Assembly: GCA_030038235.1 (NCBI GenBank)
Contig: JASHPE010000407.1
Coordinates: 1-64,000, forward strand
Reading direction: 5' to 3'
Origin: Terriglobia bacterium
GTDB taxonomy: Bacteria > Acidobacteriota > Terriglobia > UBA7540
DNA length: 64,000 nucleotides
The position numbers were made by a program, and so were the translations under genes. The notes beneath the pieces were generated by a model, which was given only the letters and a program-made list of their open reading frames with translations, had not been told where the DNA came from and did not search any database. Of the stretch, positions 29,536-57,459 are shown one piece after another (within the stretch, counting starts at the first letter, position 1; each line of letters opens with the position of its first letter).

Positions 29536-29563
29536 GTGCTTGCCGGGACTGAGTTTATCGCTG

Positions 29564-30808
29564 ATGGACCCTGGAGCCTTCTATTACGGCGCGGACGCGC
29601 TTTGCTGCGAGGACTTGGAATTGGCGCGCGTCGCGGAGGAGATCGGCACGCCCACGTACGTCTACAGCCGTGCCCGCATCCTTGCGAACTTTCGGAGCAT
29701 CGCAGAGCCGCTCAGCAAACTGAACGGTCATGCCTGCTATTCGGTCAAGGCCAACTCGAACCTCGCCATCCTGAGGCTGCTCGCGGAATCGGGTTCCGGA
29801 TTCGACATCGTTTCCGGCGGCGAACTCATGCGAGTGCTTCGCGCCGGTGCCGAGCCGGGACGCGTGGTCTTCTCCGGAGTCGGCAAGACGAACGATGAGA
29901 TCGATGCGGCACTGGCCGCCGGCGTTCTCATGCTCAATGTCGAGTCGGCTAGTGAGCTGGATGTGGTCGAGAGCCGCGCGCGCCATCGCGCCATGCGCGC
30001 ACCCGTCTCGATCCGCATCAATCCTGACGTCGAAGCGGACACGCATCCGTACATTTCCACCGGACAAGCGATCCACAAGTTTGGCGTGCCCAAAGTCGAC
30101 GCCCTGGAGCTTTATTGGCGGGCCGCGCTCTCGTCCCACTTAGAGGTACGCGGCGTGGCCTGTCACATCGGGTCGCAGATCCTCGATCTTGATCCCTTTT
30201 TGCGAGCAGCGGACGAGGTGATCGCGCTCGCCCGCGACCTGCGCTCCGAAGGCATCGCGACCGAGTATCTGGACCTTGGCGGCGGCTTCGGCATCCATTA
30301 TCGCGACGAACATCCCTTCGACTTCGACCGCTTCTTCGCGGGGCTTGAGCGTAGACTTCGCAACGAGGGCTTTCGGCCGCTGCTTGAGCCCGGCCGCTCC
30401 GTGGTGGGCGACGCCGGACTTCTACTCGTGCGTGTGCTCTACGTGAAAGAGACGGAATCGAAGCGATTCATCGTGGTTGATGGTGGCATGAATGACCTGC
30501 TGCGGCCCGCACTCTACGGGTCCTATCACGAGATTCTTCCGCTGGAACGGCGCGATGGCTCGCGGAACACGGCGGACGTGGTCGGCCCTCTGTGCGAGAC
30601 CGGTGACTTTCTCGCTCGCGACAGATTGCTTCCCGGGTTCAAGTCGGGCGACCTGCTGGCGGTGCTGGATTCCGGCGCCTACGGGTTCGTGCTCGCCTCG
30701 AACTACAATAGCCGTCCTAAGCCAGCCGAAGTCCTGATCGAGGGAGGCAAGATGCGTCTGATCAGGCGGCGCGAGGTCGCGGAGGAGTTGATGGCGGCGG
30801 AACTCTGA
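29564..30808 (+). CDS. lysA: Diaminopimelate decarboxylase
   Basis: GTPTYVYSRARI, CYSVKANSNLAILRLLAESGSGFDIVSGGEL, LDLGGGFGI, SGAYGF. Confidence 0.94.
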   Translation: MDPGAFYYGADALCCEDLELARVAEEIGTPTYVYSRARILANFRSIAEPLSKLNGHACYSVKANSNLAILRLLAESGSGFDIVSGGELMRVLRAGAEPGRVVFSGVGKTNDEIDAALAAGVLMLNVESASELDVVESRARHRAMRAPVSIRINPDVEADTHPYISTGQAIHKFGVPKVDALELYWRAALSSHLEVRGVACHIGSQILDLDPFLRAADEVIALARDLRSEGIATEYLDLGGGFGIHYRDEHPFDFDRFFAGLERRLRNEGFRPLLEPGRSVVGDAGLLLVRVLYVKETESKRFIVVDGGMNDLLRPALYGSYHEILPLERRDGSRNTADVVGPLCETGDFLARDRLLPGFKSGDLLAVLDSGAYGFVLASNYNSRPKPAEVLIEGGKMRLIRRREVAEELMAAEL

Positions 30809-31793: not shown

Positions 31794-34700
31794 TTATTCG
31801 TCGCTCGGCCGCTTCGTCCAGGCCGGTCCCCGCAGGACGCGGCCCGCGGTCGCACCGGTCAGCCGTCCCTGCTCGAATTCGAGCTGGCCGTTCACAAATA
31901 CGTACTCCACGCCGCGGGCGATCGACGCCGGATGCTGGTAGGTCGCCGTATCCTGAATAGCGCCCGGATCGAACACCGTAACGTCCGCATAAAAGCCCGG
32001 GCGCAGAAGACCGCGTTGGTACAAGTGCTCGCGGTCGGCCGGCAACGACGTGATCTTGCGGATTGCCTGCTCCAAGTCCATCAGATGATGGTCGCGGACG
32101 TAGTAGCCCAGAAAGCGCGGCATGGATCCGAAGGCACGCGGATGCGTATGCGCTTCGAAGAGCGGACCGTCCAGCGACATTTCGTTCGCGTCGAGGCCGA
32201 TGCTGGTCCACGGCTGACGCAACCCGTACTCGAGGTCCTGCTCGCTGGCCATAAAGTAGAGCGCGCCCGTCTGCGCGTGGTCGGCCAGCACAAAATCGAA
32301 CAACGCATCGAGCGGCTGCTTGTGTTGTTGGCGGGCAATCTCGGCGATTGTCTCGCCGTCGTACTGCTGAAGATCCTTGTTGAAGACGCCGGACACCTGG
32401 ACACCTGCCGCTCCGCCGCTGTCGTAGTAGAGATTTTCCCAGTCGGGGTGATCCGAAGCCATCTCGGACTTGATGCGCTGCCGCGTGCCTGGATCACGCA
32501 GGCGATCCAGAAGCTTGTCCGGACCGCCGTCCGCGGCCCAGGGCGGCAGGCAGGAAGCGAGCGCCGTGGAACCCGCCAGGTAAGGGTACATGTCCGCCGC
32601 GACATTGAACCCGGCGGCGCGCTCCGCCTCAATGCGGGCCACGATCTTCGGCATCGAACCCCAGCGCGGCTTTCCGCTCACCTTCAGGTGAAAAATTTCC
32701 ACGGGTAGCCCGGCTTCGCGCCCGATGCGGAAGGCTTCATCGAGCGCCGCGATTTCCCCCTGACCTTCGCTGCGCATGTGCGTCGCGTAGATTCCGCCAT
32801 ACTGCGCCGCGACCTTGGCGAGCGCGATAAGTTCGTCCGTCTTCGCGTACTGGCCGGGCGGATAGATCAGCGCCGTGGAGAGTCCCAGCGCCCCCTGCTG
32901 CATGGCTTGTTCAACCAAGCCCTTCATGCGATCGAGCTCGGCCGGCGAAGGCGCCCGGTCGACATCGCCTAAGACCGCCTCGCGGACCTGAGCCGCGCCT
33001 ACGTAGGTTCCCAAGTTAATCGGTGTCCCGTCGTGCTCGAGTCTCCTAAAGTAGCCTTCGAGGTCCGTCCAATCGACCTTCAAGTGATAGTGATCGAGAA
33101 AAGGCTGCAGCGGCAGCAGCGTCTGCTCATCTTGGGGCGCAATCGACTGCCCTTCACCGGTGATCTCACTGGTGATGCCTTGCGAGAGCTTGCTCAGCGA
33201 GCGATTGTCGATCAGGAGCGAGGTCTCGGACTGGCCTAGCATGTCGATGAAGCCGGGCGCAACCACCAAACCGCTCGCGTCGACGACGCGCTTTGCCTGC
33301 GATGCGTTCAGCTTGCCGATGGCCGCGATGCGATCGTCCCGGATTCCCACGTCAGCCGCGAACCACGGATTCCCGGTGCCGTCGATCACATGGCCACCCT
33401 TGAGTATCACGTCGTACGCCAGTTCCGGCACTGCCCCAGCGGCAAGATATCCGTCGGTGGCGATCTCGCCTACTGCCTGACCCACGATGTTCGTCACCGA
33501 GTCATCCTGCTGCGGGACCGCCACGCGGTTGGCATAAACTGCGAAGGCCATGTGCTCGCCCGCGGGAGTCGTGAAGTAGCCCGCCAGACCCTTTCCCGTC
33601 ACCATCACGTTGCGATTGAGCGGATCGTAGGCGGTATACGTGCCAGTCTTGGCGTGAACCTGTCCGGCTGCTGGTGATGAGGTTTGGATATTCCACAACG
33701 TGCCGTCGCGCCCAAGAATCGGGAGCGCGCGAAAGAAGACGGGGAAATCGGGCCGGTGAGCCATGTAGGCCAAATAATGAACCATGAAGTCCGGCGTATA
33801 GAACGCGGCCTCGGAACCGCCGGCGCCATCGCCTTGCGACGCCTGGCTGAGGTCCAGCCCCGCCTGCTGAAGCCACTGACGCTCGCGGTCGAATCCGGCC
33901 GCGGACGGGTCTGCACTGCCCTTGGCCAGCAATGCGCCCAGTAAATACGGCATCAGGCTGGCGTGCAGATTCTGGCTTACCTTCAGCGTTACCTTGATCT
34001 CCTCCGACAGGGGCGGCGAGACGTGCTCGGCGATCAGGTTCTGCGGTACGTATGACGCGGCCAGTGTCTTGAAGTCCGGTGCAGCGGGATTTGTGACGCC
34101 CGTCACCTGGACGTGCTCGGCATTCAAGACCTCTGCAAAGACGATCTGGGCGAAGACGGTCGGCTGAGGCACATCATAGTTGAAGAGAATCGATGACTTG
34201 CCTAAAGGCATGGTGCCGGTCACGGTGATCGTCCGCCGGCCATCCGGCCCTGCAGAATCCTTGGAGAACGAGATGTCGGGTGTGGAGTCTGGTGCGCCGG
34301 TGGTGGCCTGATTGATGAACTGCGCGTAAACGGTTGCCGGCGAAATGTTGAGTTTCACCGGTTGTCCGGCCGAGGCGCCCGGGCTCGCGATTACGTCAAT
34401 AATATTGTCATTGACCACGACCGGTGAGATCACTGCTCCTGTGCCGAGTTCGGCCGCTCCCTCGGGAAACAGAGTGGCGTCCACGAGCGCGCGGCCGTCG
34501 ACGCGCTTCACCCCGTGCGCGGCCACCTGGCGCGCGATCTCGCGCAGCACGGCCAGCGGATCACCCGGCACCGCGCGCGTATCCACGCTTCCGCCGTAGC
34601 AGTGGTCTTCATTCTCGAACGCCAGTGTTCCGTCGGGCTGAATCCGGCCCGAAAGGTTCGGGTCGCCGCTCGCTACCAGCACGATGTCGCCGTGCAGCAC

Positions 34701-35045
34701 CCCGTTCGAGTCAAGTTCGCCCGTGCGGTAAACGCGTGTGTGAAAGCGGAAGTCGGCTCCGAGTAACGCCAGCGCCGTGCCTTCGGTCAGCAGCTTGGTG
34801 GTGGAGGCCGGCGTGAAAAGCTCTTCGGGATTCAGCGCGAAGACCGGCTTCTTCCGGTCGAGCGAATAGAACTCGATCCCGAACGTCGCATGCTTGAACT
34901 CGGGCCGGCTCGTGACCTGGCGGATGCGTTCAGCGAGCGATGCCTGCGGGTTCTGCGCAGCGCGCCCTGCTCCCGCGATCAAGATTGAACCGACCAGCAT
35001 TGCGCAGACCAAGCTCGCGCTCTTCACGTGCTGCCCATGTGACAT
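31794..35045 (-). CDS. Fused PBP4-type D-Ala-D-Ala carboxypeptidase (S13) and N-acyl-D-amino-acid deacylase-like amidohydrolase
   Basis: 1083 aa; signal peptide, STTK, SQN, KTG motifs; then YDVILKGGHVIDGTGNPWFAADVGIRDDRIAAIG.. Confidence 0.9.
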   Translation of the reverse strand: MSHGQHVKSASLVCAMLVGSILIAGAGRAAQNPQASLAERIRQVTSRPEFKHATFGIEFYSLDRKKPVFALNPEELFTPASTTKLLTEGTALALLGADFRFHTRVYRTGELDSNGVLHGDIVLVASGDPNLSGRIQPDGTLAFENEDHCYGGSVDTRAVPGDPLAVLREIARQVAAHGVKRVDGRALVDATLFPEGAAELGTGAVISPVVVNDNIIDVIASPGASAGQPVKLNISPATVYAQFINQATTGAPDSTPDISFSKDSAGPDGRRTITVTGTMPLGKSSILFNYDVPQPTVFAQIVFAEVLNAEHVQVTGVTNPAAPDFKTLAASYVPQNLIAEHVSPPLSEEIKVTLKVSQNLHASLMPYLLGALLAKGSADPSAAGFDRERQWLQQAGLDLSQASQGDGAGGSEAAFYTPDFMVHYLAYMAHRPDFPVFFRALPILGRDGTLWNIQTSSPAAGQVHAKTGTYTAYDPLNRNVMVTGKGLAGYFTTPAGEHMAFAVYANRVAVPQQDDSVTNIVGQAVGEIATDGYLAAGAVPELAYDVILKGGHVIDGTGNPWFAADVGIRDDRIAAIGKLNASQAKRVVDASGLVVAPGFIDMLGQSETSLLIDNRSLSKLSQGITSEITGEGQSIAPQDEQTLLPLQPFLDHYHLKVDWTDLEGYFRRLEHDGTPINLGTYVGAAQVREAVLGDVDRAPSPAELDRMKGLVEQAMQQGALGLSTALIYPPGQYAKTDELIALAKVAAQYGGIYATHMRSEGQGEIAALDEAFRIGREAGLPVEIFHLKVSGKPRWGSMPKIVARIEAERAAGFNVAADMYPYLAGSTALASCLPPWAADGGPDKLLDRLRDPGTRQRIKSEMASDHPDWENLYYDSGGAAGVQVSGVFNKDLQQYDGETIAEIARQQHKQPLDALFDFVLADHAQTGALYFMASEQDLEYGLRQPWTSIGLDANEMSLDGPLFEAHTHPRAFGSMPRFLGYYVRDHHLMDLEQAIRKITSLPADREHLYQRGLLRPGFYADVTVFDPGAIQDTATYQHPASIARGVEYVFVNGQLEFEQGRLTGATAGRVLRGPAWTKRPSDE

Positions 35046-35125
35046 TCACATCCTCCGACCGCCGGCGCACAACGCTCCGCTGCGGACCGACAGTTTACAT
35101 CGTTATGTTACGATGTTGAACTCAG

Positions 35126-49431: not shown

Positions 49432-52400
49432 TCACTGCCCCGTGGGCAGATTCACGGGCACGTCGGTCGAGGCGCCCCAGACAGTCGTGGTCGTCTTGCC
49501 GTTGCTCGATTGCAGGATGTACCACGTCCCGTTCGAGGGCCGGAACACCGCGATGTCGGTCTTCTCGTCGCCGTCGTAGTCCTTGGCCACCGGAATGTCG
49601 CCGCTCATTCCGAACGGGGTGATGACCGTCTTGCCGTCGCTCGACTGCAGCGTGTACCAGGTCCCGTTCGACGGACGGAACACCGTGTAGTCGGTTTTCG
49701 TGTCGCCGTCATAATCCCCCGGCACGGGGATGTCGCCACTGATGCCCCACACCTGCGACACCGTCTTGCCCGTGCTGCTCAGGATCACCCACCACGTCCC
49801 CGTCGATGGACGCCAGATCGCGTAATCGGTCTTGCCATCGCCATCGTAATCGCCGGGCACCGGAATATCGCCGCTCACGCCCCAGACCTGGCTTATGTGC
49901 TGGTTGGTGCTGCTGAGAATGACGTACCAAGTTCCGTTCGAAGGCCGAAATACGGCGAAGTCGGTCTTGCCGTCGCCGTCGTAGTCGCCGGGAACAGGAA
50001 TGTCGCCGCTTGCGCCCCATTGCTGCTCGCCCGTGTAGCCTGAGCTGCTGTAAGTCACGTACCAAGTCTGATTTGAGGGCCGCCAGACCGCGTAATCGGT
50101 TTTTCCGTCGCCGTCGTAGTCGCCGGGTACGACGATGTCGCCGTTCTCCCCAGCCGCCTGCGAGGTGCTGTCGCCTGTGCTGCTATCGATCACATACCAC
50201 GTCCCATTCGACGGCCGGAACACCGCGATGTCGGCCTTGCGGTCGCCGTCGAAATTCGCAATATGCTTGTCGCGCCAGTACATCGACGGCAGGCGGTTTC
50301 CCAACACATCTGCCAGCACGCCCCAGGCGGTCGTCTTGGTCCCGCCACTCGAGTAGGAGACATACCACGTTGCGTCCGAGGGCCTGAAGACGGCATAATC
50401 GTTCTTCCCGTCGCCGTTGTAGTCACCGACCACAGGAATATCGCCGCTTTCGCCCCAGGCCTGGCTGACGGTCTTTCCCGTGCTGCTCAGGATGATCCAC
50501 CAGGTGCCGGTATCCGGCCGCCAGATGGCGTAGTCTGTCTTCCCGTCATCGTCATAGTCGCCCTCGACAGGAATGTCGCCGGGCAACCCCCAGGGCGTGG
50601 TCACGGTCTTGCCCGTGCTGCTGAGGATCACGTACCAGGTTCCGTTTGAGGGCCGGAAGATCGCGTAATCGGCCTTGCCGTCGCCGTCGTAGTCTCCCGG
50701 AACCGGCACATCGCCGGCCATGCCCCAGGGCTGGGAGATCAGCTGGCCGGTACTGCTCAGCGTCACATACCAGGTCCCGTTCGAGGGGCGCCAGACAGCG
50801 TAGTCCGTTTTACCATCACCATCAAAATCGCCGGCAATTGGAACATCTCCAGGCTCTCCCAAGTACCACCAAGTTTGAGAATAGTTGTTACTGCTTTCCA
50901 AAACCTCAAACGAGCCGGACTGCGGCACCCACATGCCGAAGTCTTCCTTGCCGTCGCCGTCGTAATCGCCGTTTACGACGAGATACCCTGTGTAGCCCTC
51001 GTATTCGCTGAGCGTGCCGCCCGCGCTTAGCATGACCGACCATAGATCGGTGGACGGCTGCCACACGGCCAGATCCGCTTTCCCGTCGCCGTCGAAATCA
51101 ACCGTGCCTCCGGGATTCTGAGCCAGCGAGTAGTAGCCGCTGCCTGACAAGCCCACAGTCTGCGGGCTGGTTGGAGCATTATCCGTCACCGTCAGAGTTC
51201 CCGACGTGGCGCCGATTCCCTTCGGACTGAACTTCACCTCGATCAGACAACTGCCTCCTGCCACTATGCTCGACCCGCAGTTATTCGTTTGGCTGAAGTC
51301 CGCGCTGCTGCTCGCAATGCTCGTAATCGCCAGCGCCGCTGTCCCATAGTTGCTCAGCGTGATGTCTTGCGTCGTGCTTGTCGAGTTGAGCCTCTGATTC
51401 GAAAAACTGAGACTGGTCACAGAGAGCGTAGCGTTCGACCCGGCAACGAGCCCGGTGCCGCTCAGGCCCACCGATTGCGGACTGCTGACGTCGCTATCGC
51501 TGATGGAAACAGTTGCCGCTCTTGGACCCGTCGCGGTCGGCGTGAAGGTCGCCGTGATGCTGCAGCTTGCGCCGGCAGCGACGCTCGACCCGCAGGTGTT
51601 CGTTTGGCTGAAGTCGCCTGGATTGGCTCCGCCAAGGCTGATGCTGTTAATGGTCAGCGCTGTGCTGCCTTTATTGGTAAGGGCTATCGTTGCCGGCATG
51701 CTGGATGTTCCGACCATGTAAGCGCCGAAGTAAACGCCGATGGGCGAGACCTCCACAGCGGTGCCCGTTCCCGCGAGCGAAATCGTCTGCGGGCTCGCGG
51801 GCGCATTATCGGAGATCGACACGGTGCCGGTCTGTACCCCGGCCTGGGTGGGATCAAACTGTACCGTGATCGAGCACGAGCTTTGCGTGTAGAGCATGGA
51901 GCCGCAGTTATTTTGGGCAATAAAGCCGGCGCTGGCCGTGATGCTGTTGATGTTCAAAGTAGCTGTTCCGGTGTTGCTGAGCGTTACGCCCTGCGGAAGG
52001 CTCAATGTCCCGATAAGTTGCATACCAAAAGTCAGGCTGGAGGGAACGATCTGAACAGTTGGCTCCTGTCCAGTGCCAGTAAGGCTGACTGTCTGCGGGC
52101 TGAACTGGCCGCTATCGCTCACGCTCAACGAGGCAGTCAGGTTCCCTGTCTCGATGGGCGCGAAAGTGACATCGATGGTGCAGGTCTTTCCTGCGCCCAG
52201 GCTGGAGCCGCAGTTGTTCGTCTGAGTGAAGTCCGCAGAATTCGGGCCCGCAAAGCCGATGCTGCTGATCGGCAGGGCCGAGGTTCCGTAGTTTCCGAGC
52301 GTAACGGCCTGAGCTGTGCTGCTGGTGCCCACGTTCTGATCGCCGAATGAGAGGCTGCCCGGAGTCAACGCGACGCCGCCCTGAAGCAGTACAGAAACTG

Positions 52401-53820
52401 ATCCCGAGTTGGAGTAATTAATGGTGAAGTCGTCGGCGACAGCCAGGTCAAGCCGTCCGTCGCCGTTGAAATCAGCGGAAACCAGGCCCACGGGTCCTTG
52501 ATCGAGCGGAAAATCCACGTGCGTTTGAAAGGTGCCGTTACCGTTACCCTGGAGCAGGGACAAGTAACCGGGGGAGTTGCCGTAGTTGGAGTCCAGAACG
52601 GCGAGGTCGAGCTTGCCGTCGTCATTGAAATCGCCCACGCTCAAGTAATTGGGCTCGGTATTTGTTGCGTAGTCGGTCTCCGTCTGGAAGGTGCCATTGC
52701 CATTGCCCAGGAGCACAGCCACGATGTTGCTGAATTCCACAGGCACCGCCAGATCGAGTTTGCCGTCACCGTTGAAATCGGCGGTCGCAATGTCATAGTT
52801 GAAAGAGCCGCCGTCGACCGAATAGCTTATGGGGGGTTGAAAACTACCGTCGCCATTCCCAAGCAGTATCTCGACTCCCGGGTATCCCGGAATCGCGAGA
52901 TCCAACGTGCCGTCGCCGTCAAAATCCCCTACGGCCGGTATTCCAAAACTTCCTGCCTGGTTGGCGATCGTGGGGACCTGAAACGTTCCATCGCCGTTCC
53001 CGAGAAAGACAGCAAGGCCGCACGAATAGGGGTAGCTGATACAGTAGTAGCTGACACCGAAATCGAGCTTTCCGTCTCCGTTAAAGTCGGCGGCAAACAT
53101 GGGACTCTCTGAATCGACGCTGAGGTAAGTGCTCCCCGCGATGAAAGTGCCGTCCCCATTGCCGAGAAAAACCTGGATGCTGTTGGGATAGTAGGGGCCA
53201 CTGTTGAAAATGACGTCCAAGTTTCCGTCGCCATTAAAATCGCCCACCGTAATCAGTCCGCTGTTCGAGGTGGCCGTGAGAATGGGTGTGCCAAAAGTCC
53301 CGTCGCCGTTGCCCAGCAGGATGTCAAACCCGGTGCTCACGGGCACGGCCAGATCCGGTATGCCGTCGTTGTTGAAATCTCCGGCAATCGGCTGCTGCGG
53401 TTGGATGTAGCCGGTGAGATCGTTGAAACCAAAGCCTGGCTTGGTCTCGCTGGTCGCGATCGGGAAGTACACCACGTTCGAGTCTTGCGCGCCAGGAGTC
53501 GAGACCGTCACGGAAGCTGTGCCCACAATGGCGATCATCGACGCGGGCACTTGGGCAGTGAGCTGTCCGGTGGAAATCACCAGCGTCACCAGCGGCAGTC
53601 CGTTCCATTCCACCACCGAGCCCGGTGAGAAGCCTGCGCCGTTAACGGTAAGCGTAAATGCCGCCCCGCCCGGTACAGCGCTCGAGGGCACCAACGGTTG
53701 ATCGATGAACGGTGCAGGAGCGAGCTGCGCCGCGGCGCGCGGCGCGCAAGTGCCCAGGAAGAACATCAGTTCACAGAAGATAACCGCGGACTGCGCCCGA
53801 TGGATGTGCTTGGTTGTCAC
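49432..53820 (-). CDS. Giant secreted protein: IPT/TIG-like + FG-GAP/VCBS + four ASH (choice-of-anchor D) + ~12 FG-GAP-like repeats
   Basis: 1462 aa; signal peptide; [70 protein letters not shown] repeats. Confidence 0.92.
   Translation of the reverse strand: [1462 protein letters not shown]
49450..51110 (-). repeat. Tandem coding repeats, ~140-145 bp period (~12 units)
   Basis: Recurrent cgtaatcggtcttgccgtcgccgtcgtagtcgccgggaac and accacgtcccgttcgaaggccg blocks. Confidence 0.88.
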
Positions 53821-54083: not shown

Positions 54084-54112
54084 TTGACAAACACGCTGCG
54101 ATGTGCCAGCTT
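54084..54112 (+). promoter_or_regulatory. Sigma70-like promoter TTGACA-17-CAGCTT for locus C
   Basis: agcctacaat..ttgacaaacacgctgcgatgtgccagctt resembles locus B upstream region. Confidence 0.5.
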
Positions 54113-54145
54113 GTTACCGTCCCTTGAGCAATCGAGGAGCGTATC

Positions 54146-54238
54146 ATGGTTCTGCGCCGCTTCGACCGTACCGCAGGCAGGAAGCCTTCACTACAAGTGC
54201 CCGCCAATCGGCACTGCCGGCTGGGGCCTGGAGGCTGA
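54146..54238 (+). pseudogene. Degenerate third copy of the STGPRT-type family (locus C)
   Basis: MVLRRFDRTAGRKPSLQVPANRHCRLGPGG*: keeps ANx5GP spacing of ANARKSTGP. Confidence 0.4.
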
Positions 54239-54576
54239 TGATGTCTGTGCGCGGAGGTTCCGCTCGCTCCGCCCGGAACCTCGCAGCGGACGAAGCCAGC
54301 TCTAGCCTCTGCAGATCGACCTACACCACGAAAAACATCCCCAAAAACACGACCAAAGCGCCCCTCCAAAGCCGGAATGCCATGAGTAATCATAAAGATG
54401 GCGGGATTTTGGGAAAATGCACCTTAAGGGACGCGCCCGTATTTGCAAACCCTCAGTTTTTCGAATTTCGCAACCCTCTGAATCTCGGGCCGTTAACGGT
54501 CGCTCTAGCCGACACAGCTCAACCTACAATCGAAAAAACGCGCAAAAGCGCCCCCGCTCTAACATCCACGAATCAA

Positions 54577-54800
54577 AATGCACTTTCGTTTAGAATCAAC
54601 GACATTCCGGGAATGTGTCGGCTAGGCACGAAACGGGAATGTCCTTTAGAATCAGTAAAACGGGGCTACATGGCGAACAATGTTTACAAAGTTCCGAAAA
54701 CGGGAATGTCGTTTGGAATCAGCGAGATGACACTAATTCGAGAAAAGTCGAAATACCCAAAGGGCGCCCCCAGCGGAACGGGAATGTCGTTTATAATCAA
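54577..54800 (+). repeat. Four imperfect repeats CGGGAATGTCSTTTNGAATCAN with 57/67/78 bp spacing
   Basis: 54577, 54634, 54701, 54779; encode ALSFRIN / (G)MSFRIS / GMSFGISEM / GMSFIINEM. Confidence 0.7.
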
Positions 54801-54900
54801 TGAGATGTCAATTTGGGTTCAGCGATCGAAAGGCGGAGTTTACTCACGAGTAACGAGCGCGACGAAGACGCTGGGGATGCTGTTTGAAAGGCCCCACGCC

Positions 54901-54991
54901 CGTCATTCCGAGGAGCCGCAGGCGACGAGGAACCAAGCGGCACAAAGAGGCGCGCCAAGGCGCTCCCCCAGATCGCTTGGCTCGAAGGACG
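54901..54991. repeat. Copy of CGTCATTCCGAGGAGCCGCAGGCGACGAGGAAC repeat plus ACCAAGCG/CGCTTGG inverted arms
   Basis: Direct reading; related to 45211-45242. Confidence 0.7.
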
Positions 54992-55029
54992 ATACCGCAA
55001 AACCGCGCCGAGCGGCATCAAATCGTCTT

Positions 55030-57459
55030 ATGGGAACTTATCTCAAAACTGTGGGCTTAGCATTGGTGCTGGCCTTCGCGACCACTTCGGCGCGCGCAAG
55101 TTCGCCTGGCTTCGATCTCGCCGGACCGCCGATCGAGGTGAAAGTCATCCGCGGCGGCAAGCAGTTGCCGATTTCTGAAGTGCCCAATCTGCTCGAAGGC
55201 GATCGGCTGTGGCTGCACGCCGATCTTCCCGAGAACCAATCCGTCCGATATCTCCTCATCGCGGCTTTCCTGCGAGGCACCACAAATCCTCCGCCCGAAG
55301 GCTGGTTCACGCGCGTGGAAACCTGGACCAAAGAGGAGCGCCAGGAAGGCACTGAAGTCGCGGTTCCGGCGGGCGCTCAGCAGGCGCTGCTGTTTCTCGC
55401 CCCGCAGACCGGCGGCGACTTCGGCACGCTGCGCGGCGCGGTTCGAGGCCGACCGGGTGCGTTCGTGCGGGCGGCGCAGGATCTGAACGAGGCCGCCCTC
55501 AACCGCTCGCGGCTGGATGAGTTCCTGAAGGAAGTACGCGAGACGTCGGACACGAACGCCGCCGATCTGAAGGCGCGCTCTACTCTGCTCGCCCGAAGCC
55601 TGCAGATCAAGCTGAACGAGTCCTGCTTCGAAAGACCCGTCGAGGAGCAGGCGACGTGCCTCATGTCGGACTCCGACAATCTCGTGCTGGACGACCCGCA
55701 GAGCCAGTCGATGGTGGCGGCGCTCACCAGCGGGACGTCGGCGCAGTTGATCAGCGCGGTGGCATCCACGCCGATGGCGGGCGGCGGCTACTACAGCGCC
55801 TATGTGGGCGCGGTTGTGGATGTGGTGAAGATCATGGACAACATTCACACGGCAGTTTACCAGTACATTCCGGCGCTCGCCCTGCCCAAGAACGACGAAC
55901 TGAACCTGAAGCTCAACAGTCCGCCGTCGTTTCGCAATCCAAAATCGGTGCTCGTGGTCGGATTGCCCGCTGTGGAATCCGCGCAGTTGCCGCCGCTGCG
56001 GGCCGTCGATCCGAAGGCGGTCTATTGCCTGCAGAATCCAAAACTGGTCCTGCCGGTGGAAGGCGCGCCGCTGGTCTTCTCGACCGGGTACGCGCACGGA
56101 TTCACGCTTCAGCTTACGGGGAAGTCGGGCCAGACGGTCAAGCTGCCGGCGACCGCCGAAGCGGCGCAAGGCGGCTTCGTGATCGATGCCAGCGCCGCGA
56201 AGCCAGGCGACCTCGATACCGAAGTTACCGGTGTCCTGCGCGGCTTCTGGGGTTCCAAGCCTTTCGAAGGTCCGGGCTTTCACCTGCGCGCGAGTGAGCC
56301 CTCGGCTGCCTGGACGATCCCGACGCTCGATCAACATTCCCTTGTCGTGGGCCGCGAAGACACGATCGATCTGGAGTCCGACGACGCCTGCTGCGCCGAC
56401 AAGGTCACGACGGAGGACGCGGGCGGGCACGACCTCACAACCATTTGGAAGGTTCTTGATCCTGCAAAACTACAGGTGCAGGTCGCTCTCGCGAGCGCAA
56501 AGGCAGGTCCCATCACGCTGCTCGTGCACGAGTATGGCGACCCGGATCCGGCCAAGATCGCGCTCCAGGCTTATTCCGAGGAAGGCCACCTGGACGCCTT
56601 TGCGATTCACGCCGGAGACGCTCAAGGCGTGCTGACCGGAACTCGTCTCGACGAGGTCGCCAGTCTGCAGTTGGATGGAGTGAACTTCGCTCCGGCGGGC
56701 TTGAAGCATCAGGACGACAAAGACGCGCTGGCTCTTTCGGCCCCCGCGGCTGCAGCGGGCGCGCTTTCCGCCGGTCAGAGTCTCACGGCGAAAGTCACCT
56801 TGAAGGATGGACGTGTGCAGGACGTGCAGAGCGCCGTGGAGGCGCCGCGGCCCAAGGTGACACTCCTGAGCAAGGCAGTGCAGTTGAGCTCGACACCCTC
56901 AGCGATCCAGTTGGGTGACGCCGACGAGCTGCCCCAAGATGGACAACTCACGTTTGTGCTGAAGTCGGACGTGCCCAAGTCGTTCGCGCGAACAGAAAAG
57001 ATCGAGGTCGCGAGCATGGACGAGTCTTTCCATGCACTGCTCACCGTCGCGGACGGAACCCTAACCCTCGAGGACGCTGCGACGGTGCTCGCCACGCTCG
57101 AGCCTCTCAAGGCGTTCGGCCCGGCCGCGTTTGGACCGCTGCAGTTCCGCGCTGTCGACGGCACAGGAGCGGACGGCGATTGGCAGCCGCTGGCCACGCT
57201 GGTACGCCTGCCGTCACTTAAGGAAGTGCGCTGTCCGGACAAGATCGATCAACCGTGCGCGCTGAGCGGCAGCAATCTGTTTCTGCTTGATTCGGTCGCT
57301 TCAGACCCGCAGTTCGCGAAGAACATTCCCGTCCCCGTGGGTTCCGTGGCCTCAAGCTTGAGCGTACCGAGGCCGAACGGCACTGTGCTCTACGTGAAGC
57401 TGCGCGACGATCCGTCCGCGGTCAACATGGCGGCGCTTCCGGTGCTGCCGGCGCCGTAG
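55030..57459 (+). CDS. Large secreted protein of unknown function
   Basis: ~809 aa from ATG 55030 (MGTYLKTVGLALVLAFATTSARA signal); upstream part of the 1118-aa ORF is repeat/relic sequence. Confidence 0.7.
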   Translation: MGTYLKTVGLALVLAFATTSARASSPGFDLAGPPIEVKVIRGGKQLPISEVPNLLEGDRLWLHADLPENQSVRYLLIAAFLRGTTNPPPEGWFTRVETWTKEERQEGTEVAVPAGAQQALLFLAPQTGGDFGTLRGAVRGRPGAFVRAAQDLNEAALNRSRLDEFLKEVRETSDTNAADLKARSTLLARSLQIKLNESCFERPVEEQATCLMSDSDNLVLDDPQSQSMVAALTSGTSAQLISAVASTPMAGGGYYSAYVGAVVDVVKIMDNIHTAVYQYIPALALPKNDELNLKLNSPPSFRNPKSVLVVGLPAVESAQLPPLRAVDPKAVYCLQNPKLVLPVEGAPLVFSTGYAHGFTLQLTGKSGQTVKLPATAEAAQGGFVIDASAAKPGDLDTEVTGVLRGFWGSKPFEGPGFHLRASEPSAAWTIPTLDQHSLVVGREDTIDLESDDACCADKVTTEDAGGHDLTTIWKVLDPAKLQVQVALASAKAGPITLLVHEYGDPDPAKIALQAYSEEGHLDAFAIHAGDAQGVLTGTRLDEVASLQLDGVNFAPAGLKHQDDKDALALSAPAAAAGALSAGQSLTAKVTLKDGRVQDVQSAVEAPRPKVTLLSKAVQLSSTPSAIQLGDADELPQDGQLTFVLKSDVPKSFARTEKIEVASMDESFHALLTVADGTLTLEDAATVLATLEPLKAFGPAAFGPLQFRAVDGTGADGDWQPLATLVRLPSLKEVRCPDKIDQPCALSGSNLFLLDSVASDPQFAKNIPVPVGSVASSLSVPRPNGTVLYVKLRDDPSAVNMAALPVLPAP

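Follow-up and report, generated by a model that had tools for sequence, protein, structure and literature searches.

Amidohydrolases of subtype V, the D-aminoacylases, combine a common fold with a Cys/His/His ligand set, an HxH motif at the alpha metal site, a catalytic Asp and a Lys/Tyr/Arg group that binds the substrate carboxylate. The closest described proteins of this fold are the Alcaligenes D-aminoacylase (AfDam; 1M7J/1V4Y) and the Bordetella N-acyl-D-glutamate deacylase (3GIP), and related D-aminoacylases also hydrolyse L-Xaa-D-Xaa dipeptides. The N-acetyl-glucosaminate deacetylase PpOngB (9KB1), which has the same fold, carries one metal at its beta site (Cys97, His222 and His252) with Asp368 as the catalytic residue; Lys254, Tyr285 and Arg379 surround the expected substrate carboxylate, and activity is abolished by H68A or H70A (PMC12017989). 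In CE9/NagA enzymes the metal site is Glu/His/His (PMC12017989). One metal suffices in E. coli NagA, which has QxN in place of HxH, but the exchange of HxH for QxN kills mycobacterial NagA (PMC6016474). Among the serine DD-peptidases, Actinomadura R39 (1W79), Bacillus PBP4a (1W5D) and E. coli DacB share one domain organisation with SxxK, SxN and KTG motifs, and none has a C-terminal amidohydrolase. A GNAT-NSAR route from D- to L-amino acids goes back to Sakai et al. (2006, as cited in PMC8762209). Literature searches, whose coverage lay mostly outside subscription journals, returned no report of an S13-amidohydrolase fusion such as the one described here.

The fused gene and its DD-peptidase half

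The window is the whole stretch of 64,000 nucleotides that was analysed; it belongs to a soil acidobacterium whose genome is 92% complete in 481 contigs. A single open reading frame of 1083 amino acids without internal stop (31794-35045, minus strand, as are all features of this gene given below) starts with ATG, six bases after a Shine-Dalgarno-like GGAGG read by eye (35052-35056). The translation, also judged by eye, opens with a hydrophobic stretch, LVCAMLVGSILIAGAG, followed by RAAQ. This is a probable Sec signal peptide of about residues 1-30 (34956-35045), a region with pLDDT below 50 in the AlphaFold2 model, and the fused protein is probably exported. Residues 38-514 (33504-34934) form a Peptidase_S13 domain (Pfam PF02113, 202 bits against a cut-off of 22.8; NCBIfam TIGR00666, PBP4, 155.9 bits against 107.8), and residues 543-1073 (31827-33419) a domain of the D-aminoacylase fold, placed by sequence and fold matches, in which Pfam Amidohydro_3/_1 is matched and whose best solved relative is AfDam (phmmer, 312 bits). 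Base composition is even across the junction. The short linker (residues 521-542; 33420-33485) varies in length among relatives; at one locus (L081:5598-9248, minus strand) it has about 100 additional amino acids and shows no apparent relation to either domain.

The AlphaFold2 model (mean pLDDT 83.5) matches R39 and PBP4a with TM scores of 0.80-0.83 and the D-aminoacylases with 0.87-0.92 by target length (0.87-0.88 for AfDam and the Bordetella deacylase), but the orientation of the two domains in it is unreliable because pTM is 0.57. The S13 half has the same domain organisation as R39, PBP4a and DacB, and its triad is present and conserved: STTK as the catalytic SxxK (residues 81-84; 34794-34805), SQN as the SxN motif (residues 357-359; 33969-33977; SHN in one relative) and KTG (residues 466-468, KTGT at 466; 33642-33650). 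It is the only S13 present in this genome, and many relatives carry a second, distant one. The earlier note, made from the letters alone, had read a PBP4-type DD-peptidase with STTK, SQN and KTG fused to a D-aminoacylase-like domain; one frame with both domains matched, and conserved in relatives, bears this out. The S13 half is predicted to be an active serine DD-peptidase of the PBP4/R39 type, which would take the terminal D-Ala off peptidoglycan stem peptides or cut D-Ala-mDAP crosslinks.

Gene neighbourhoods and the proposed role

When the S13 half was used to scan named genomes, the best 80 loci included 34 fused ones. Recurrent neighbours were a VanX-type dipeptidase, a GNAT-NSAR pair, a MurR-like regulator, a serine hydrolase and a gamma-glutamyltransferase. 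Counted over these 34 loci, the MurR-like regulator occurred at 20, the NSAR-family enolase at 12, VanX-type peptidase and gamma-glutamyltransferase at 11 each, and GNAT at four; ten had VanX as the gene directly upstream on the same strand, in two cases joined to a serine hydrolase, and another ten had NSAR there. A search of 21 fusion genomes gave 13 occurrences of VanX, nine of which adjoin the fusion. NSAR had a GNAT gene next to it in 18 of 21 loci, and some of these pairs immediately precede the fusion. The neighbour counts ignore kinship; adjacency of VanX was seen in two phyla and on parts of the S13 tree that lie apart from each other. The NSAR genes were named from NCBIfam menC_lowGC (o-succinylbenzoate synthase), so that racemase function is deduced from the double activity of that family, which we take to extend to these genes.

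Two further arrangements were seen at such loci. A class C beta-lactamase-like serine hydrolase fused to VanX lies directly upstream of S13 at L063:1206-3698 (plus strand) and at L101, L104, L110, L111 and L113. A conserved protein of about 150 amino acids without Pfam match (L070:3381-3848, plus strand, and homologues) is encoded in the interval that separates the fusion from the gamma-glutamyltransferase, on the opposite strand.

We propose that the fusion is an exported bifunctional enzyme acting on cell-wall peptides, whose C-terminal half would hydrolyse the amide bond formed by the amino group of a D-amino acid, the substrate being either a short L-Xaa-D-Xaa peptide or an N-acyl-D-amino acid; N-acyl-D-amino-acid deacylation is a putative activity. 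The freed D-amino acids would feed a salvage route which in relatives includes the VanX-type dipeptidase and the GNAT-NSAR pair (D- to L-). From the neighbourhoods of the relatives, salvage of D-amino acids from peptidoglycan is the most likely function, and because the fusion there adjoins genes of D-amino-acid salvage it is probably a conserved wall-recycling enzyme and not a sequencing error or a dead domain. On the proposal as a whole, an exported DD-peptidase joined to a one-metal amidohydrolase in wall D-amino-acid salvage, our judgement is evenly balanced. Fusion genomes resemble the GNAT-NSAR route in their adjacent GNAT and NSAR-family genes and differ in that these are tied to wall peptidases; no L-desuccinylase was identified.

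The idea of the earlier note that the protein scavenges D-amino acids thus gains from the VanX, GNAT-NSAR, MurR and gamma-glutamyltransferase genes of its relatives, but the locus in the window lacks such a cluster. Its neighbours are a NAD kinase and a beta-propeller/phosphoesterase protein; a gamma-glutamyltransferase lies about 4.8 kb from the fusion and a gene of the diaminopimelate-decarboxylase family at 29540-30808. Neighbouring VanX, NSAR and MurR genes are absent from the locus, Peptidase_M15 was not detected in the 92% complete genome, and its GNAT-NSAR pair lies on another contig.

These housekeeping neighbours would suit a fusion that matures or edits the wall of the growing cell, for example by handling non-canonical D-amino acids, with the linked genes as wall housekeeping and no part in nutrition. 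PBP4-type enzymes normally remodel the cell wall, and here the fusion would have to do so as the sole S13. We consider this unlikely, given that a GNAT-NSAR pair and VanX speak for degradation with reuse and that in many relatives the second S13 could do the housekeeping.

The metal site of the amidohydrolase half

Residues were mapped onto AfDam from the HMMER alignment. AfDam H67 and H69 correspond to L603 and Q605 within MLGQSE (residues 602-607; 33225-33242), which by alignment and tree replaces the alpha-site HxH. AfDam C96 is deleted: TGEG (residues 629-632; 33150-33161) is one residue shorter than the usual TGNCG, and Glu631, which we propose as the replacement of the Cys ligand, stands beside or at its place. 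Both beta-site ligands are kept as His756 (AfDam His220; 32778-32780) and His786 (AfDam His250; 32688-32690), and the catalytic base as Asp952 (AfDam Asp366; 32190-32192). Also kept are Lys788 (AfDam Lys252; 32682-32684), Tyr820 (AfDam Tyr283; 32586-32588) and Arg970 (AfDam Arg377; 32136-32138), whose role as ligands of the substrate carboxylate is taken from PpOngB. In the model E631, H756, H786 and D952 are predicted at or just after strand ends, as expected for the active site of a barrel.

The earlier note had read PGFIDMLGQSE and TGEGQ, found at residues 597 and 629, as an altered metal site in which two His and the Cys were replaced. Its motifs were right, yet half of the site is intact according to the AfDam map, and the Cys, though gone, is lost with a one-residue deletion. 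The retained beta-site His pair, catalytic Asp and carboxylate residues went unmentioned in that note. Compared with AfDam and the Bordetella deacylase, the protein thus shares the fold, both beta-site His, the catalytic Asp and the carboxylate-binding Lys, Tyr and Arg, but lacks the Cys ligand and HxH, has a conserved Glu631, is fused to S13 and is probably exported. With the Cys ligand and HxH missing, it is not a subtype V D-aminoacylase proper, and we therefore class it as a variant, perhaps with a similar mode of action.

Losing HxH cannot be taken to be harmless, since PpOngB and mycobacterial NagA lose their activity when HxH is mutated; here the loss must have been compensated, or the reaction has changed. 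The precedents of PpOngB and NagA make the MLGQSE type look like a NagA-style site in the body of a D-aminoacylase. E. coli NagA has the kind of one-metal Glu/His/His site, with HxH replaced (QxN), that we propose here, although it belongs to another amidohydrolase family and has another substrate. The C-terminal half would then be an active beta-mononuclear amidohydrolase that has given up the alpha site: Glu631, His756 and His786 would hold one metal, which would activate water together with Asp952, while Lys788, Tyr820 and Arg970 would hold the substrate carboxylate. Metallo bile-salt hydrolases (PMC13081902) were considered as relatives and rejected, being amidohydrolases of another type, for which a binuclear site with a carboxylated Lys is predicted.

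The same losses of HxH and Cys, the inactive HxH mutants elsewhere and the orthologues that do without an amidohydrolase half would also be expected if this half were catalytically dead and served the DD-peptidase as a binding or structural domain. The conserved residues make this quite improbable. L603, Q605, E631, H756, H786, K788, Y820, D952 and R970 are invariant in all 32 fused and all 18 free-standing MLGQSE domains (50/50), although only about 31% of the amidohydrolase columns are invariant among the fused proteins. Against the congener dN/dS (NG86) is about 0.05 for this half and about 0.09 for the S13 half, both rough figures because dS is near saturation. Free-standing close relatives moreover indicate that the domain exists independently of the peptidase. 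Of the two outcomes foreseen in the earlier note, a pseudoenzyme is thus disfavoured, whereas a mononuclear site is supported by the residue pattern (HxH lost, the beta His pair and Asp invariant, Glu for Cys), which fits an active Glu/His/His one-metal enzyme.

Such an enzyme might instead deacetylate an amino-sugar acid, as OngB does on GlcNAc1A, and serve salvage of wall sugars. OngB, a one-metal enzyme with two His and Asp at its beta site, shares the fold and is found together with a MurR/RpiR regulator (PMC9537276), MurR-like regulators occur near 20 of the 34 named fused loci among the best 80, and free-standing close relatives adjoin a SIS-domain enzyme of the glucosamine-phosphate type (L092-L094). 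OngB nevertheless keeps its Cys97, needs HxH and acts on a sugar acid; the enzymes of the ong cluster are cytoplasmic (PMC12017989, PMC9537276), whereas the fusion appears exported; and the substrates of VanX, NSAR and GNAT are D-Ala peptides and amino acids. The chance that the substrate is a sugar acid therefore seems rather small, and we keep to D-amino acids.

In a careful amidohydrolase tree, built with the motif columns left out, His/His/Asp and Lys/Tyr/Arg were kept in nearly every row; one row was gapped at Asp and Arg, and another had His for Lys. The first motifs form a series that begins with HxH plus GNCG, continues with HxH plus GE(D/A) and ends with GEG and no HxH (MLGQSE, MMGGTT, MMDQSG), so that in this tree the Cys was replaced, by Glu, before HxH was lost. 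The tree is compatible with either one or two losses of HxH.

HxH-less paralogues also lie near GNAT-NSAR, VanX or MurR genes (L197, L198, L200, L102, L172). Two tandem amidohydrolases, of the MMGGTT and MMDQSG types, were seen at L197:13580-16946 (plus strand), and also at L198; a GNAT-NSAR pair lies about 5 kb away, accompanied in L197 by a MurR-like gene. We suggest tentatively, and at slightly less than even probability, that the HxH-less branch (MLGQSE, MMGGTT, MMDQSG) with its Glu/His/His one-metal site forms, together with VanX, S13, GNAT and NSAR, an undescribed D- to L- pathway for peptidoglycan peptides, of which Terriglobia have fused two exported steps. Proteins of the MLGQSE type match D-aminoacylases well yet lack the defining residues of that enzyme; the present case points to one such branch as an enzyme of its own, probably active with one metal, and ties it, by the fusion and its neighbourhood, to D-amino-acid salvage from the cell wall. 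If this is true, soil Acidobacteriota and Gemmatimonadota would have a testable route for reusing bacterial wall material, and the branch would be a natural example of an amidohydrolase surviving the loss of half its metal centre.

Distribution and origin of the fusion

Of 399 genomes of the class, 32 carry the in-frame fusion according to a junction-spanning query: 31 matched on both sides of the junction, plus G014, whose frame of 1217 amino acids has a longer linker. The relatives include a congener, 87% identical, and a member of another family of the class, 62% identical; all 20 fusions fetched and read were single frames with both domains. The genome is in 481 contigs, but the joining of two separate genes by assembly or sequencing error, which the earlier note had raised against its own reading, is negligibly probable because independent genomes carry the same in-frame fusion, among them the congener and G226, a complete one-contig genome of 5.65 Mb.

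The 34 named fused loci among the best 80 were all labelled Acidobacteriota or lower ranks of it, bar one labelled Betaproteobacteria, which groups with the acidobacterial fusions. Unfused S13 orthologues come from Acidobacteriota, Gemmatimonadota and a few other groups, and those at L149, L154, L156, L168 and L170 keep the gene cluster without the amidohydrolase half. Fused and unfused proteins are patchy on a quick S13 tree (12 changes); a quick amidohydrolase tree puts the 32 usable fused domains, without exception, into a single clade of 37 rows, together with five free-standing ones. The pattern agrees with a single fusion or a few, later lost or split again more than once, the quick trees being compatible with either direction of change.

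Other joined frames were seen. A triple fusion of Peptidase_M15 (VanX type), S13 and amidohydrolase occurs once, in one frame of 1397 amino acids (L138:7945-12135, plus strand). An MLGQSE amidohydrolase with a C-terminal Putative cyclase domain (PF04199) at L184:4855-7452 (plus strand) is a real fusion with a different partner. Long frames of free-standing amidohydrolases at L183 and L185-L188 were rejected as further fusions, the N-terminal extra looking, by eye, like open frame upstream of the real start. Elsewhere in the window lie an open reading frame of 1118 amino acids without Pfam match (54103-57459, plus strand) and a protein of 1462 amino acids with many FG-GAP repeats and ASH/Cep192-like Ig domains (49432-53820, minus strand).
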